This document shows positions 1,271 through 4,122 of a stretch of DNA of 38,533 bases, piece after piece. Both the position numbers and the translations under genes were made by a program. Position 1 is the stretch's first letter; every line of letters starts with the position of its first letter. A model generated the notes under the pieces. That model saw only the letters and a program-made list of their open reading frames with translations. It ran no database searches and was not told the DNA's origin. The stretch lies in the NCBI GenBank assembly GCA_027013095.1, contig JALUYI010000046.1:1-38533 (forward strand), written 5' to 3'. Source of the stretch: Paracoccaceae bacterium (lineage in GTDB: Bacteria > Pseudomonadota > Alphaproteobacteria > Rhodobacterales > Rhodobacteraceae).

Positions 1271-1489
1271 ATGCCACGCTCCCAGCCGCGACGAAACACT
1301 CTCCACCCCGACAAGATGTCGCCCGATGCGCGCATCGCTGAAATAGGCCGTATTCTGGCCGCCGGTCTGTTCCGGATGCGCAGGCCAAAGTCCAGCGTTT
1401 TATCTGCGAAACCCGGAGACAGTTCTCTCGACTTACCGGTGCGAGTGAGCGGTCATGCGGGTGACGAAAAACCGAGTTGGAGACCATGA
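1271..1489 (+). CDS. Small 72-residue protein, first gene of the recombinase operon
   Basis: The ORF starts at an ATG with AAAGG about 7 nt upstream. Its TGA stop (1487-1489) overlaps the ATG at 1486 of the DUF2924 gene, a junction typical of translational coupling. The segment ARIAEIGRILAAGLFRMR, followed by SSVLSA and a GDSSLDLPVRVSGH tail, resembles short uncharacterised proteins I have seen next to DUF2924/recombinase genes in alphaproteobacteria (recollection, not a search). The central helix is amphipathic with basic residues. An internal ATG at 1316 (MSPDAR) is an alternative start that would keep all of the conserved-looking part. No function is known. Confidence 0.6.
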   Translation: MPRSQPRRNTLHPDKMSPDARIAEIGRILAAGLFRMRRPKSSVLSAKPGDSSLDLPVRVSGHAGDEKPSWRP

Positions 1490-2001
1490 TGAAACAGTTG
1501 AAACGCAAACAAACGCAGGCCTGCCTGCCAAAGCCAGGCCACGACCCAGAAACCGATCAAACGGTTCTGGCGCGTCTTAATGCCCTTAAGAACATGGGCA
1601 TTCCGGAACTTAAAGCCGAATGGGCGCGCCTGTTTGATGCGCCCGCCCCCAACAACAGCGGTCCCTTTCTGCGCATGCGCCTCGGCCACCGGATCCAGGA
1701 GTTGACCTATGGTGGCCTCAGCAAACCCGCCAAGCGCATGCTCGATCTGCTGGTCGATGAGGTCGAGGGCGGAAAGGTGCGAAAATCGATGATTTCTGAC
1801 CCCCGCACGCCCGTTGTTGGCACGCGGCTAATCCGCGAATGGGACGGGGTTGAGCATACAATCACCGTGCTCAAACAGGGGTTTGAATGGCAGGGACGTC
1901 AGTACAAATCGCTCTCCGCCATTGCCCGCGCCATTACCGGTACCCGCTGGAACGGCTTTCGGTTTTTTGGTCTTAGCAACTCGAAACGGGGTGCAAAATG
2001 A
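1486..2001 (+). CDS. DUF2924 domain-containing protein
   Basis: The protein has about 171 residues. The C-terminal part carries the hallmark of DUF2924: TRLIREWDGVEHTITVL, then a GFEWQGRQYKSLSAIARAITG segment ending in TRWNG and FFGL. Proteins of this family usually sit beside a serine recombinase, often on phage- or plasmid-like DNA, and their biochemical role is not established. The start is either ATG 1486, overlapping the preceding stop, or ATG 1489, which is better spaced from the GGAG at 1479-1482; a TTG at 1477 is less likely. The 3' end overlaps the recombinase ATG by 4 bp, so the two are probably made together. The N-terminus is lysine-rich and could bind nucleic acid (inference). 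Confidence 0.9.
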   Translation: MMKQLKRKQTQACLPKPGHDPETDQTVLARLNALKNMGIPELKAEWARLFDAPAPNNSGPFLRMRLGHRIQELTYGGLSKPAKRMLDLLVDEVEGGKVRKSMISDPRTPVVGTRLIREWDGVEHTITVLKQGFEWQGRQYKSLSAIARAITGTRWNGFRFFGLSNSKRGAK

Positions 2002-3323
2002 GATCGAATGTATCAAAGCTCCCCGCACGCAAGCGTTGTGCGGTTTACACCCGCAAATCCTCCGAAGAAGGGCTTGATATGGCTTTCAATTCTCTGGATG
2101 CCCAACGCGAGGCCTGCGAAGCCTATATCCTCAGCCAGAAGGCCGAGGGCTGGGTTCTGGTCAAGGATCATTATGATGATGGCGGCATATCCGGCGGCAC
2201 CTTGAACCGGCCCGACTTACAGCGCCTACTTGGCGATATTGAGGCGGGTCTCATCGATGTGGTGGTGGTTTACAAGATCGACCGGCTGTCGCGCTCGTTG
2301 ATGGATTTTTCCCAACTGGTCGAAGTGTTCGAGCGCAATGACGTGACCTTCGTCTCAATCACGCAATCGTTCAACACCACAACCTCCATGGGACGACTGA
2401 CGCTGAACATCCTGCTGTCATTCGCGCAGTTTGAACGCGAAGTCACGGGTGAGCGCATCCGCGACAAGATCGCCGCCTCGCGCAAAAAAGGCATGTGGAT
2501 GGGCGGCACGGTTCCGCTTGGCTATGACGTCAAAGATCGGAAACTGGTGGTGAATGACGATGAGGCCGCCACGGTCCGCCATATCTTCACCCGTTTCGTT
2601 GATCTCGGGTCTGCTACTGTGCTGACGCGGGAACTGCGCCAAGGTGCCATTCGCAACAAACAGGGGCGCGTTATCGACAAGGGGTTTCTCTATCGCCTGC
2701 TCAACAATCGCGTTTACATCGGCAACGCGATTCACAAAGGCACGGCGTACCCCGGTGAGCATGATGCCATCATCAGCCAGGACCTCTGGGATCGGGTGCA
2801 TGCCATCATGGAAGAAAGCCCTCGCGCACGCGCCGCCAACACCCGAGCACAAACGCCAGCGCTGCTGAAGGGGCTGCTGTTCAGCGCGAGCGGGGCCGCT
2901 ATGACCCCGACCCATACCAAAAAGGGCAGCAGGCTTTACCGCTATTACGTCTCAATGGATGTTCTGCGCAACCGCGTCGGCGAAACCGATCCCGGTCCGC
3001 ACCGCTTGCCCGCGGGCATGGTTGAGGAGGCCGTAGTTGGTGAAATCCGCGCCCTTCTGCGCACGCCCGACATTGCCGCGCAAGCCTTGCAATCGCTCAA
3101 TCGCGAGAATGTTGAAATCGAGGAAGCCGAGGTTTTGGCCGCGATCACCGGCTTTGATGATCTCTGGCACGGGCTGTTTCCAGCCGAGCAAGCCCGCATC
3201 ATCCAGTTGCTGGTTAAGCGCGCCACCATCACCGAGGCCGGGCTGGTGGTTGATCTCAGAACCGACGGGATCACCGGCCTCATTCGTGAAATGCTAACCC
3301 CGAAACCCAAGGAAACCGCATGA
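1998..3323 (+). CDS. Serine recombinase (resolvase/invertase N-terminal domain plus recombinase domain)
   Basis: This 441-residue site-specific recombinase has the N-terminal catalytic motif YTRKS (residues 17-21) with Ser21 as the expected nucleophile. DDGGISGGTLNRPDLQRLL and KIDRLSRSLMDF (around 95) are conserved blocks of the resolvase fold. The recombinase domain follows (about 170-270: GYDV, RHIFTRFVDLGS, LLNNRVYIG). The region that is a zinc ribbon in many large serine integrases (MTPTHTKKGSRLYRYYV) has no cysteine pairs, so zinc is probably not bound. It is shorter than typical phage integrases because it lacks a long coiled coil. It overlaps DUF2924 upstream and the next gene downstream by 4 bp each. 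Its target sites are unknown; the flanking motifs at 1201 and 3889 are candidates. Confidence 0.93.
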   Translation: MRSNVSKLPARKRCAVYTRKSSEEGLDMAFNSLDAQREACEAYILSQKAEGWVLVKDHYDDGGISGGTLNRPDLQRLLGDIEAGLIDVVVVYKIDRLSRSLMDFSQLVEVFERNDVTFVSITQSFNTTTSMGRLTLNILLSFAQFEREVTGERIRDKIAASRKKGMWMGGTVPLGYDVKDRKLVVNDDEAATVRHIFTRFVDLGSATVLTRELRQGAIRNKQGRVIDKGFLYRLLNNRVYIGNAIHKGTAYPGEHDAIISQDLWDRVHAIMEESPRARAANTRAQTPALLKGLLFSASGAAMTPTHTKKGSRLYRYYVSMDVLRNRVGETDPGPHRLPAGMVEEAVVGEIRALLRTPDIAAQALQSLNRENVEIEEAEVLAAITGFDDLWHGLFPAEQARIIQLLVKRATITEAGLVVDLRTDGITGLIREMLTPKPKETA

Positions 3324-3709
3324 GAAAATCCCCTGAAACCCTGCGCGTCGTTATCCCGCTCAATATCCGCAAGAAGAACGGGCGACCGAAAATCCTGCCG
3401 CCAGACGGGCTGTCCCCGCAGCAAAACCGCGCCCAGGACCCCCATCTCTTGCGCGCCGTTGGCCGTTCCCTTGGCTGGCGGAAGCGTCTCGATGAGGGCC
3501 GCGCCGCCACCATACATGATATCGCGACCGCCGAGCATCTCAGCGATTCCTTCGCTGCGCGCTACCTACGCCTTGCGTATTTGTCGCCCGAAGTTCTGGA
3601 GGCCCTCATCCTTCAGCGCCGCCCCTCTGCCGTGCGAGTCGTCGATCTGGTCAAGATCGCCGCCCGACCGTGGGTCGAACAGGTGGATGCCGTGTTTGGT
3701 GAAGAGTGA
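3320..3709 (+). CDS. Small helix-turn-helix-like protein, last gene of the recombinase operon
   Basis: The 129-residue basic protein starts at an ATG overlapping the recombinase stop by 4 bp. The stretch GRSLGWRKRLDEGRAATIHDI followed by AEHLSDSFAARYLRLAYLSPEVLEAL (about residues 48-97) has the pattern of a helix-turn-helix of the ParB/KorB kind: helix, short turn, then a recognition-like helix ending in the invariant-looking YLRLAYLSP. Similar small proteins usually follow DUF2924/recombinase pairs in alphaproteobacteria (recollection). A DNA-binding or site-accessory role for the recombinase is inferred. It could also regulate the divergent 368-residue gene through the palindrome at 1168-1184. 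Confidence 0.75.
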   Translation: MRKSPETLRVVIPLNIRKKNGRPKILPPDGLSPQQNRAQDPHLLRAVGRSLGWRKRLDEGRAATIHDIATAEHLSDSFAARYLRLAYLSPEVLEALILQRRPSAVRVVDLVKIAARPWVEQVDAVFGEE

Positions 3710-4032
3710 GGGGTCGGAAATTACACTGCCCCCAAATCCAGAAAAACCCTTATAAATCAACACCTGTCGCGCCGGTTCGGAGTTTAGGTGCGGGGTGGGC
3801 GGAATCTCCAAAAGGTCACTCCCCCAAAAACGTCAAGCCATTGTAAACACGTCTTATTTTTAGAGTGACGTGGCTGAGCGTAGGTTCACTCGGTATGAGA
3901 CATATGCCCTTTAGAGACCAATTTCGGCCCCTCCGGCTGTCTCCGATGGTCACACCCCATGGCTAAACCCCTTTGAAACCAAAAGAAAAAAAGCTCCTCA
4001 GGGGGCGTGTTTCAGGATTCTATATAGGTGGG
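3710..4032. other. Non-coding stretch between the recombinase operon and tRNA-Ser
   Basis: I see no convincing gene here. The stretch holds an inverted repeat GTCACTC (3815-3821) / GAGTGAC (3863-3869) around an AT-richer segment, then the right copy of the flanking motif (3889-3919). An A-rich run lies at 3978-3991. If the cassette is mobile, its right boundary is most likely in this stretch. Confidence 0.5.
3889..3919 (+). repeat. Right copy of the motif flanking the recombinase operon
   Basis: CTCGGTATGAGACAT (3889-3903) plus AGAGACC (3913-3919) match the left copy (1201-1239) in both blocks and in orientation. There is no gene directly downstream on this strand, which argues against a purely promoter role for the shared motif. 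Confidence 0.45.
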
Positions 4033-4122
4033 TGGCGGAGGAGGTGGGATTCGAACCCACGGAAGACTTGCACCTTCGCTGGTTTTCAAGACCAGTGCAT
4101 TCGACCACTCTGCCACTCCTCC
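4033..4122 (-). tRNA. tRNA-Ser (UGA anticodon)
   Basis: The 90-nt gene folds as a class II tRNA: acceptor stem GGAGGAG/CTCCTCC, anticodon stem CTGGT/ACCAG with loop CTTGAAA and anticodon TGA (complement of 4086-4088), a long variable arm, a T arm containing GGTTCGAATCC, discriminator G and an encoded CCA (4033-4035). It reads UCA and related serine codons. It lies about 320 bp from the recombinase cassette. tRNA 3' ends are common island integration sites, but I found no second copy of this 3' end in the window. Confidence 0.97.

Follow-up and report, generated by a model that had tools for sequence, protein, structure and literature searches.

The integrases of TP901-1, A118 and phiC31 are single-chain serine recombinases that use short attachment (att) sites and are mostly directed to protein genes. 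A closer case is the Acidithiobacillus phage AcaML1, in which gp5-gp4-gp3-gp2 encode, in this order, a small protein, a DUF2924 protein, a recombinase annotated as "large subunit" and a helix-turn-helix (HTH) protein annotated as "small subunit," with overlaps of 1, 1, and 4 bp. A passage of PMC3826726 places AcaML1 in ssrA, the tmRNA gene (printed "srrA"), with 10-bp repeats, and the attachment site of sr1WO of Wolbachia phage WO is given in parts of PMC9203015 as a magnesium chelatase gene or intergenic. Serine integrases are, by passages of PMC4383910 and PMC9262239, not known to target tRNA genes, and part of PMC6536676 predicts a Paracoccus serine-recombinase phage, Pami6, in tRNA-Met, the sole such phage there with a predicted site. 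Here we describe a four-gene cassette in a 38,533-nucleotide stretch from a Paracoccaceae bacterium (JALUYI010000046.1; hereafter the window), which is one whole contig of its genome and begins at base 1. The initial annotation assigned no purpose to this cassette; we find that it marks elements at the 3′ ends of serine-tRNA genes. Very probably, it is the integration module of a family of mobile elements, in which a split serine integrase and two helper proteins would act in insertion at tRNA-Ser 3′ ends. The argument, built on sequence comparison, draws on conservation of the module, its split and fused forms, its target, an arm next to the target, a core found in relatives, and tandem arrays.

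The first gene of the module (1271–1489) encodes a small accessory protein of 72 amino acids without family match. It is followed by a gene for a 171-amino-acid DUF2924 protein (1486–2001, with ATG at 1486; PF11149, 9.1e-48), whose C-terminal half is RAMA-like by its relatives, a gene for the 441-amino-acid catalytic subunit of a large serine integrase lacking the zinc-ribbon cysteines (1998–3323; PF00239 and PF07508), and a gene for a 129-amino-acid HTH protein (3320–3709), assigned through phrog_14161 and fused relatives as the split-off C-terminal ParB-like subunit of the integrase. All four open reading frames (ORFs) are on the + strand and share an ATGA overlap at each of the three junctions, as had been claimed for the cassette. 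Two scans for relatives of the recombinase found at least 579 and at least 592 of them, and the best 80 of each were examined; the former was a scan of named species, and its best 80 encoding stretches ("80 named loci") are alphaproteobacterial by record title except for one contig labeled Betaproteobacteria and one labeled Pseudomonadota only. Among these loci, a 4-bp overlap joins the DUF2924 stop and the recombinase start in 74 of the 79 measurable for both genes, and the recombinase stop and the HTH start in 70 of 78, with a 1-bp overlap in four more. The small gene and the DUF2924 gene overlap by 4 bp in 30 of 55 loci and by 1 bp in 7 of 55. In these counts the script preferred a start codon at −4 or −1 if present, and gene starts are thus assigned, not proven. 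Because they are kept across relatives, the overlaps are judged to be more than chance. Tight coupling of this kind had been regarded as unusual for a phage integrase, a view at odds with the similar order and overlaps in AcaML1.

The partners also travel with the recombinase, in agreement with the initial annotation, which had treated the four genes as one machine. The complete set of four genes was recognized in 54 of the 80 named loci, and a homolog of the small protein lies upstream of the recombinase in 55; in one relative (L035) this homolog is 85% identical. A second sample comprised 101 related genomes, the window's own genome included, in which a recombinase match (E ≤ 0.001) was found in 69, many of the matches being restricted to the catalytic core. 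In these genomes, 62 of the 67 places with DUF2924 are within 1 kb of a listed recombinase match; two of the remaining five are near contig ends, one is under the family cut-off, and two are without a listed partner. Furthermore, a recombinase gene is adjacent in all eight phage records with DUF2924. Partners occurring mostly without the recombinase have not been found so far, the HTH and small proteins not having been searched separately, and the genomic position of the module varies among relatives.

The two upstream genes immediately precede the integrase gene, overlapping it or each other, which would also suit a directionality factor: DUF2924 or the small protein, kept in constant proportion to the integrase, might balance excision and integration through the overlaps. 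A directionality factor constantly co-expressed with an integrase, however, favors excision and would be unusual, and the presence of DUF2924 by a recombinase match in 62 of 67 places suits an obligatory subunit as well. Such a role is possible for either protein, but we regard it as rather unlikely.

The target is recognized from the DNA downstream of the module. In the window, a tRNA-Ser(TGA) gene called with ARAGORN, as were the tRNA genes of the 80 named loci, lies at 4033–4122 on the − strand with its 3′ end facing the cassette. On the two sides of the recombinase, the survey of the 80 named loci covered 574,515 bp (upstream) and 652,030 bp (downstream). A tRNA of any kind was found in 34 loci, 33 of them with tRNA-Ser and one with tRNA-Gly; all 33 tRNA-Ser genes are downstream, on the opposite strand, with the 3′ end toward the cassette, and no tRNA was found in the 574,515 bp upstream. 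In 53 of the named loci 10 kb of downstream sequence is available, and 41 of these are positive, 28 for tRNA-Ser and 13 for the arm alone. A sample of 80 loci in viral contigs, with flanks of 3 kb each way, has a tRNA in five, all tRNA-Ser in the same layout. In a tRNA scan of 21 sources, eight relatives had tRNA-Ser and 13 sources had no tRNA, AcaML1 and several short sequences among the latter.

The window and these eight relatives add nine cases of tRNA-Ser to the 33 named ones, and the resulting 42 tRNA-Ser loci are distributed over all four isoacceptors: GGA 16, GCT 11, TGA 10, and CGA 5. The isoacceptor is not tied to the enzyme. For example, a related genome (G012) has tree-identical recombinases at tRNA-Ser(GGA) and tRNA-Ser(TGA) in two elements, and the near-identical integrases of L038, L086, L087, and L089 are at GCT, TGA, TGA, and GGA genes, respectively. 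In the G012 genome, GGTTCGAATCCC-N7-CCGCCA is matched exactly at five sites, and at four of them ARAGORN calls a tRNA-Ser gene (GGA, TGA, and two CGA). A complete module with tRNA-Ser(GCT) is also found in Shinella sp. PSBB067 (L059/L082; NZ_CP069303); its replicon, of 4.6 Mb, is classed as a plasmid and has only two annotated features.

Between the cassette and the tRNA, an element arm (P′ arm) of about 175 bp adjoins the tRNA 3′ end (3858–4032, − strand), defined by similarity to the arms of relatives. The sequence TCCGCCA at the tRNA 3′ end (4033–4039, − strand), common to both types of junction in relatives, is the inferred crossover region. In 40 of the 42 tRNA-Ser loci (31 of the 33 named ones), the DNA after CCA is similar to the corresponding DNA of at least one other locus, and for 25 of them the most similar locus has a different isoacceptor. 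The segment 3742–4127 of the window, tRNA included, is 89% identical in L035. The arms are of two types. For the first 80 bp of type B arms the mean pairwise identity is 0.82–0.87, and past 180 bp it is near 0.35, while type A arms, the window's included, are more diverse and fall less sharply, from 0.48–0.70 to about 0.35–0.63. Several relatives have a terminator-like hairpin in the arm, and type A arms carry inverted GAGAC/GTCTC repeats; the fold z score of the hairpin was −1.94, −1.60, and −3.31 in the three relatives folded (L035, L051, and L086) and +0.90 in the window. GTCTC also occurs upstream of the window's operon, and a shared operator for autoregulation was considered and dropped as a general feature: a shuffle gave p ≤ 0.01 in only 2 of 34 loci, the window and L084. 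In another genome of the sample (L179, G004), which has no recombinase match, a type-A-like arm follows tRNA-Ser(CGA) at 1501–1590; this orphan arm is possibly a scar, or belongs to an element that lost its integrase.

The arm is present downstream without a complete tRNA in 19 of the 80 named loci and upstream in none, and in the viral contigs it occurs in 10 loci, always downstream. In all, 25 arms have no recognized tRNA-Ser before them; two are at contig ends, and TCCGCCA is found in each of the 23 readable junctions. Of these 23, 15 have a shared end with the consensus AGAGAAGGTTGGACTCCAGGCCCATCCCCTCCGCCA, which by eye resembles the T-arm and acceptor end of tRNA-Ser, and the other eight have a different end or one like a tRNA remnant. 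Most of the tRNA-less arms are read as probable tandem elements. G012 element 1 illustrates the two junction types: it extends over 24.8 kb from the tRNA to the start of a second arm, its far junction reads ...GTGTCCTCCGCCA followed by the arm, its tRNA junction reads ...CTGTCTGTCCGCCA followed by the arm, and TCCGCCA is common to both. Thus, the direct-repeat core of a mobile element is found in relatives, in G012 element 1 and at 23 of 23 junctions, the window's own left end being off the contig. For G012 element 2, a weaker candidate left end lies 66.6 kb from its tRNA. A P-end matrix was trained on the 15 ends and applied to sets containing them, so that such matches are circular; the matches that are not circular are few (L068, L076, L077 twice, and L158, with low ones at the tRNAs of L086 and L116). 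The 23-of-23 count is independent of this matrix.

Occupied and unoccupied tRNA genes can be compared within genera. Eight genomes of the G012 genus all match a query of the tRNA with its 5′ flank, and the sequence after tRNA-Ser(TGA) varies by eye: G012 and G107 carry an arm, G102 carries one of the other type, G105 has an arm-like start, and G101, G103, and G104 have no arm, while the G106 locus compared did not include the tRNA. The best case is G105, where a stretch 458 bp from the tRNA corresponds to one that in G012 is 78.9 kb distant from it (85% identity over 578 bp) and the 5′ flank is common (82% identity); G105, with its arm-like start, would be a near-empty site. The native flank of G012 element 2 matched, among the eight congeners, only G012 itself. 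In G108, compared at the locus of G059, no arm was seen by eye, and the downstream sequence was unmatched in the stretch compared. In the window's genus, tRNA-Ser(TGA) is followed by type A arms in the window and G007 and by type B arms in G006 and G001; by eye, no arm follows it in G003 or at the second tRNA-Ser(TGA) of G007. The flank of the G003 gene matched the window's genome over 94 bp only, at another place. A stretch of 1.3 kb that separates the HTH gene from the arm in G007 is missing from the window.

The enzyme itself belongs to the large serine integrases. The recombinase matches Resolvase (PF00239, 1.9e-39) and, above the cut-off, Recombinase (PF07508, 1.7e-14) in Pfam, and the PHROG integrase family at 3.1e-106; S21, R19, R96, and R99 are invariant in 11 aligned sequences. 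The zinc ribbon PF13408 scores 17.8 bits against a cut-off of 25.3, and the corresponding stretch has no cysteine. The whole protein had been called cysteine-less, which needs correction, since C14 and C40 are present and only the zinc-ribbon cysteines are lacking. The zinc ribbon is variable in some serine recombinases, and we treat this region as a variant of the large serine integrase.

The HTH protein, like the other two partners, had been suggested as a possible directionality, targeting, or synapsis factor. It matches phrog_14161, a "recombinase" family, at 3.8e-22, and in two records of phage WO and in several bacterial relatives an HTH match lies in frame, C-terminal to the recombinase. 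Given this fusion in relatives, we read the HTH protein not as an independent factor but, most plausibly, as the C-terminal ParB-like DNA-binding domain of the integrase, encoded by a separate gene. The Pfam family HTH_ParB matches 13 of 42 aligned HTH proteins, with 0.0011 at best. A predicted model of the protein (mean pLDDT 83.8) gave the DNA-binding domains of Noc and ParB as top Foldseek matches, with probabilities of 0.99 and 0.96 and E values of 0.31 (Noc) and above. Three changes between split and fused architecture are needed on a quick tree of 116 recombinases, against a mean of 18.8 after shuffling; seven long rows were called fused on length alone, and the number becomes two without L246, a mislabeled row in which no HTH was found, and is the same when the seven rows are omitted. 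The window's own genome carries, at a contig end (L054, G000:C58, 4581–5365), the C-terminal part of another recombinase (47% identical) with an HTH gene.

The DUF2924 protein is less easily read. In its predicted model, the N-terminal half is helical and the C-terminal half is small and rich in strands; most of either half is well predicted, but the pTM for the whole is low (0.42). The RAMA domain is linked to modified bases, and RAMA (PF18755, E up to 10) matches 23 of 45 aligned DUF2924 members, with 1.2e-4 at best. One might suppose from this that the RAMA-like part senses DNA modification or the state of the host at the tRNA or att DNA and so gates recombination. The window's protein has no match to PF18755, however, and a structure search of the PDB with its model of low pTM gave zero matches; we consider this gating improbable. 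In the Sphingopyxis plasmid pRW412b (L060, 9609–10405), DUF2924 adjoins DUF3489, and a recombinase is neither annotated nor matched beside it; from this case, DUF2924 may have a role outside integrases.

The mechanism that we propose is as follows. A split large serine integrase, made of the catalytic subunit and a separate ParB-like HTH subunit and co-encoded with DUF2924 and the small protein, would bring the element into the 3′ end of tRNA-Ser by recombination within TCCGCCA, and with the crossover inside this core the tRNA would stay intact. All four tRNA-Ser isoacceptor genes would be accepted, presumably by recognition of the T-arm and acceptor end that they share. The arm of about 175 bp may be bound by the HTH and DUF2924 proteins, which would build or direct the synapse. 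The element of the window would occupy tRNA-Ser(TGA). That the module proteins catalyze the insertion, and the part given here to each helper, is what we infer from the pattern described above.

It is very improbable that the cassette is mere cargo, for example a device resolving dimers or inverting a segment, on islands put into tRNA-Ser by a tyrosine integrase, the usual tRNA-targeting enzyme: passages of PMC9262239 and PMC4383910 do assign tRNA targets to tyrosine integrases, and tyrosine-integrase phages in tRNA-Ser are reported for Paracoccus and Acetobacter, but no tyrosine recombinase (PF00589, E up to 0.001) was found on eight element stretches of six genomes (the window contig, G007:C223, G020:C11, G032:C11, G032:C17, G059:C24, and both G012 elements; other element-bearing genomes were not searched), the two G012 elements have the arm, the cassette, and one other segment in common and little else, tRNA-Ser, where present, always faces the downstream end of the cassette, and in 11 of 18 loci a tRNA lies 200–641 bp from the end of a long-form relative. 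PF00589 recombinases are present elsewhere in all six genomes searched.

Several observations weigh against the proposed insertion at tRNA-Ser by the module. Neither tRNA-Ser nor the arm was found in 28 of the 80 named loci, 12 of them with the full 10 kb downstream, and one of the 28 (L107) has the tRNA-Gly. In L115 and L157, tRNA-Ser is present with an arm unlike that of any other locus. No clean, base-exact empty site was found among the congeners compared. In the window, only the integrase end of the element is on the contig, the left end lying beyond it, and no terminator-like site was found at 3975–4035, where the hairpin is not significant; from this weak hairpin, the element of the window may be a remnant.

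The fused relatives also count on this side, as they are not restricted to tRNA-Ser, and phage WO is found at other sites. In the long-form set (18 loci, L246 excluded, with the HTH seen by BLAST in 11), the DUF2924-linked recombinases end 200–641 bp from an opposing tRNA in 11 loci, and these tRNAs are Ser in seven, Gln in two, Met in one, and Arg in one. So, too, does a control of 13 DUF2924-less serine recombinases, five of which overlap a tRNA (Met in four and Arg in one; L262 is ambiguous). DUF2924 had been considered as the cause of tRNA targeting and was rejected on these five cases; since recombinases without it overlap tRNA too, it cannot be the sole cause. In four cases (L252, L254, L259, and L260), the reading frame of a DUF2924-less recombinase extends some 40 bp into an opposing tRNA-Met gene; these apparently form a tRNA-targeting serine group of their own. 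Among serine recombinases, the targeting of tRNA is thus wider than the module family. Because serine integrases are, by the passages cited above, not known to target tRNA genes, a tRNA-Ser-targeting family of them is unusual, though it is not unprecedented.

Upstream of the module, a divergent gene of 368 amino acids (21–1127, − strand), without Pfam match, is a frequent partner: 13 of the 80 named loci, and several relatives outside this set, have it next to the module. Neither it nor the small protein gave any match in Pfam, NCBIfam, and PHROG-type family searches. Its final residues are unlike those of the G007 homolog, and the DNA similarity ends at base 79 of the window. This gene may be a regulator of the element.

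The cargo between cassette and tRNA was sampled as 10 proteins from 10 loci, and includes a strong match (435 bits) to PDC-S36, a PADLOC candidate, as well as a UvrD/GajB-like helicase, a UmuC-type polymerase, and a chromate transporter; no Pfam match (E up to 0.01) was obtained for three of these proteins, including that of a 452-amino-acid gene of G007, the window's close relative. Ten larger ORFs scanned in G012 element 1 encode arginase, decarboxylase, aldehyde dehydrogenase, an SNF2 helicase near DrmD, RepB, and HipA among others, and a structural phage protein was found in none of these 10. The sampled islands, carrying defense-like and metabolic cargo, are therefore relevant to gene traffic in alphaproteobacteria, and the family may be large, given scans that found at least 579 and at least 592 relatives. 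Island finders that permit only tyrosine integrases at tRNA genes would miss such elements. If the split enzyme works as proposed, it would offer an integration tool, its target tolerating insertion and occurring several times per genome, and would make a tractable case for the study of helper-dependent serine recombination.

Among the titles and abstracts listed in searches of the open-licence PMC literature, none describes the function of the module, and AcaML1 remains its nearest described counterpart. The AcaML1 recombinase is 51.6% identical to that of the window, and gp2 matches the window's HTH protein at 4e-11. The DUF2924 proteins, in contrast, are only 34% identical, gp5 has no detectable similarity to the small protein of the window and corresponds to it by place only, and AcaML1 is a phage genome with an extra HTH relative, gp1 (9e-15), which is not seen in the window's module. 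The tandem HTH relatives gp2 and gp1 are at L055 10374–11227, and only gp2 is annotated as a recombinase subunit. The target also differs, tmRNA in AcaML1 and tRNA-Ser here, on a plan that is otherwise alike: the ends of the AcaML1 record, which read ...GGGTTCGGTTCCGTGTTCCGCCACCATTTA and CCACCATTTACCC and then a hairpin, combine a T-arm-like, tmRNA-like end that has CCGCCACCATTTA with an arm that has the hairpin. Gene order with overlaps and insertion at the 3′ CCA end of tRNA or tmRNA are features that the module family has in common with AcaML1. In phage WO, DUF2924 is directly upstream, the recombinase is 38–43% identical, and the HTH region is present, though fused to the recombinase; a match to the small gene was not found in its two records.

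The more distant systems have the catalytic parts in common. By score, the best NCBIfam model for the recombinase is the SCC recombinase CcrB, with which it has the serine-recombinase core in common, but the scores for CcrB, CcrA, and CcrC (143, 89.7, and 80.2 bits) are below the cut-offs of 900, 700, and 900, so that the protein is not a member of Ccr, and the SCC Ccr recombinases have other partners and another target. The integrases of TP901-1, A118, and phiC31 are alike in catalytic and recombinase domains, as seen in PDB matches to 3bvp (1.2e-31), 4kis (4.8e-20), and 9ibl (2.4e-08). In contrast to these, the present module has a separate C-terminal DNA-binding protein, two co-encoded helpers, an arm of about 175 bp, and tRNA-Ser as target; it is a known enzyme class in an unusual form with an unusual target. 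On balance, we lean toward a wider interpretation, in which a large branch of serine integrases would have evolved to use the 3′ ends of tRNA and tmRNA genes as safe harbors. Its split form would treat the whole tRNA-Ser set as one target, and the left end of its attP would mimic the T-arm and acceptor while the arm provides a new terminator, so that insertion would be free for the host and elements could stack in tandem. With a helper complex on a long attP arm, such an architecture would be nearer to the arm sites of lambda Int than to phiC31.

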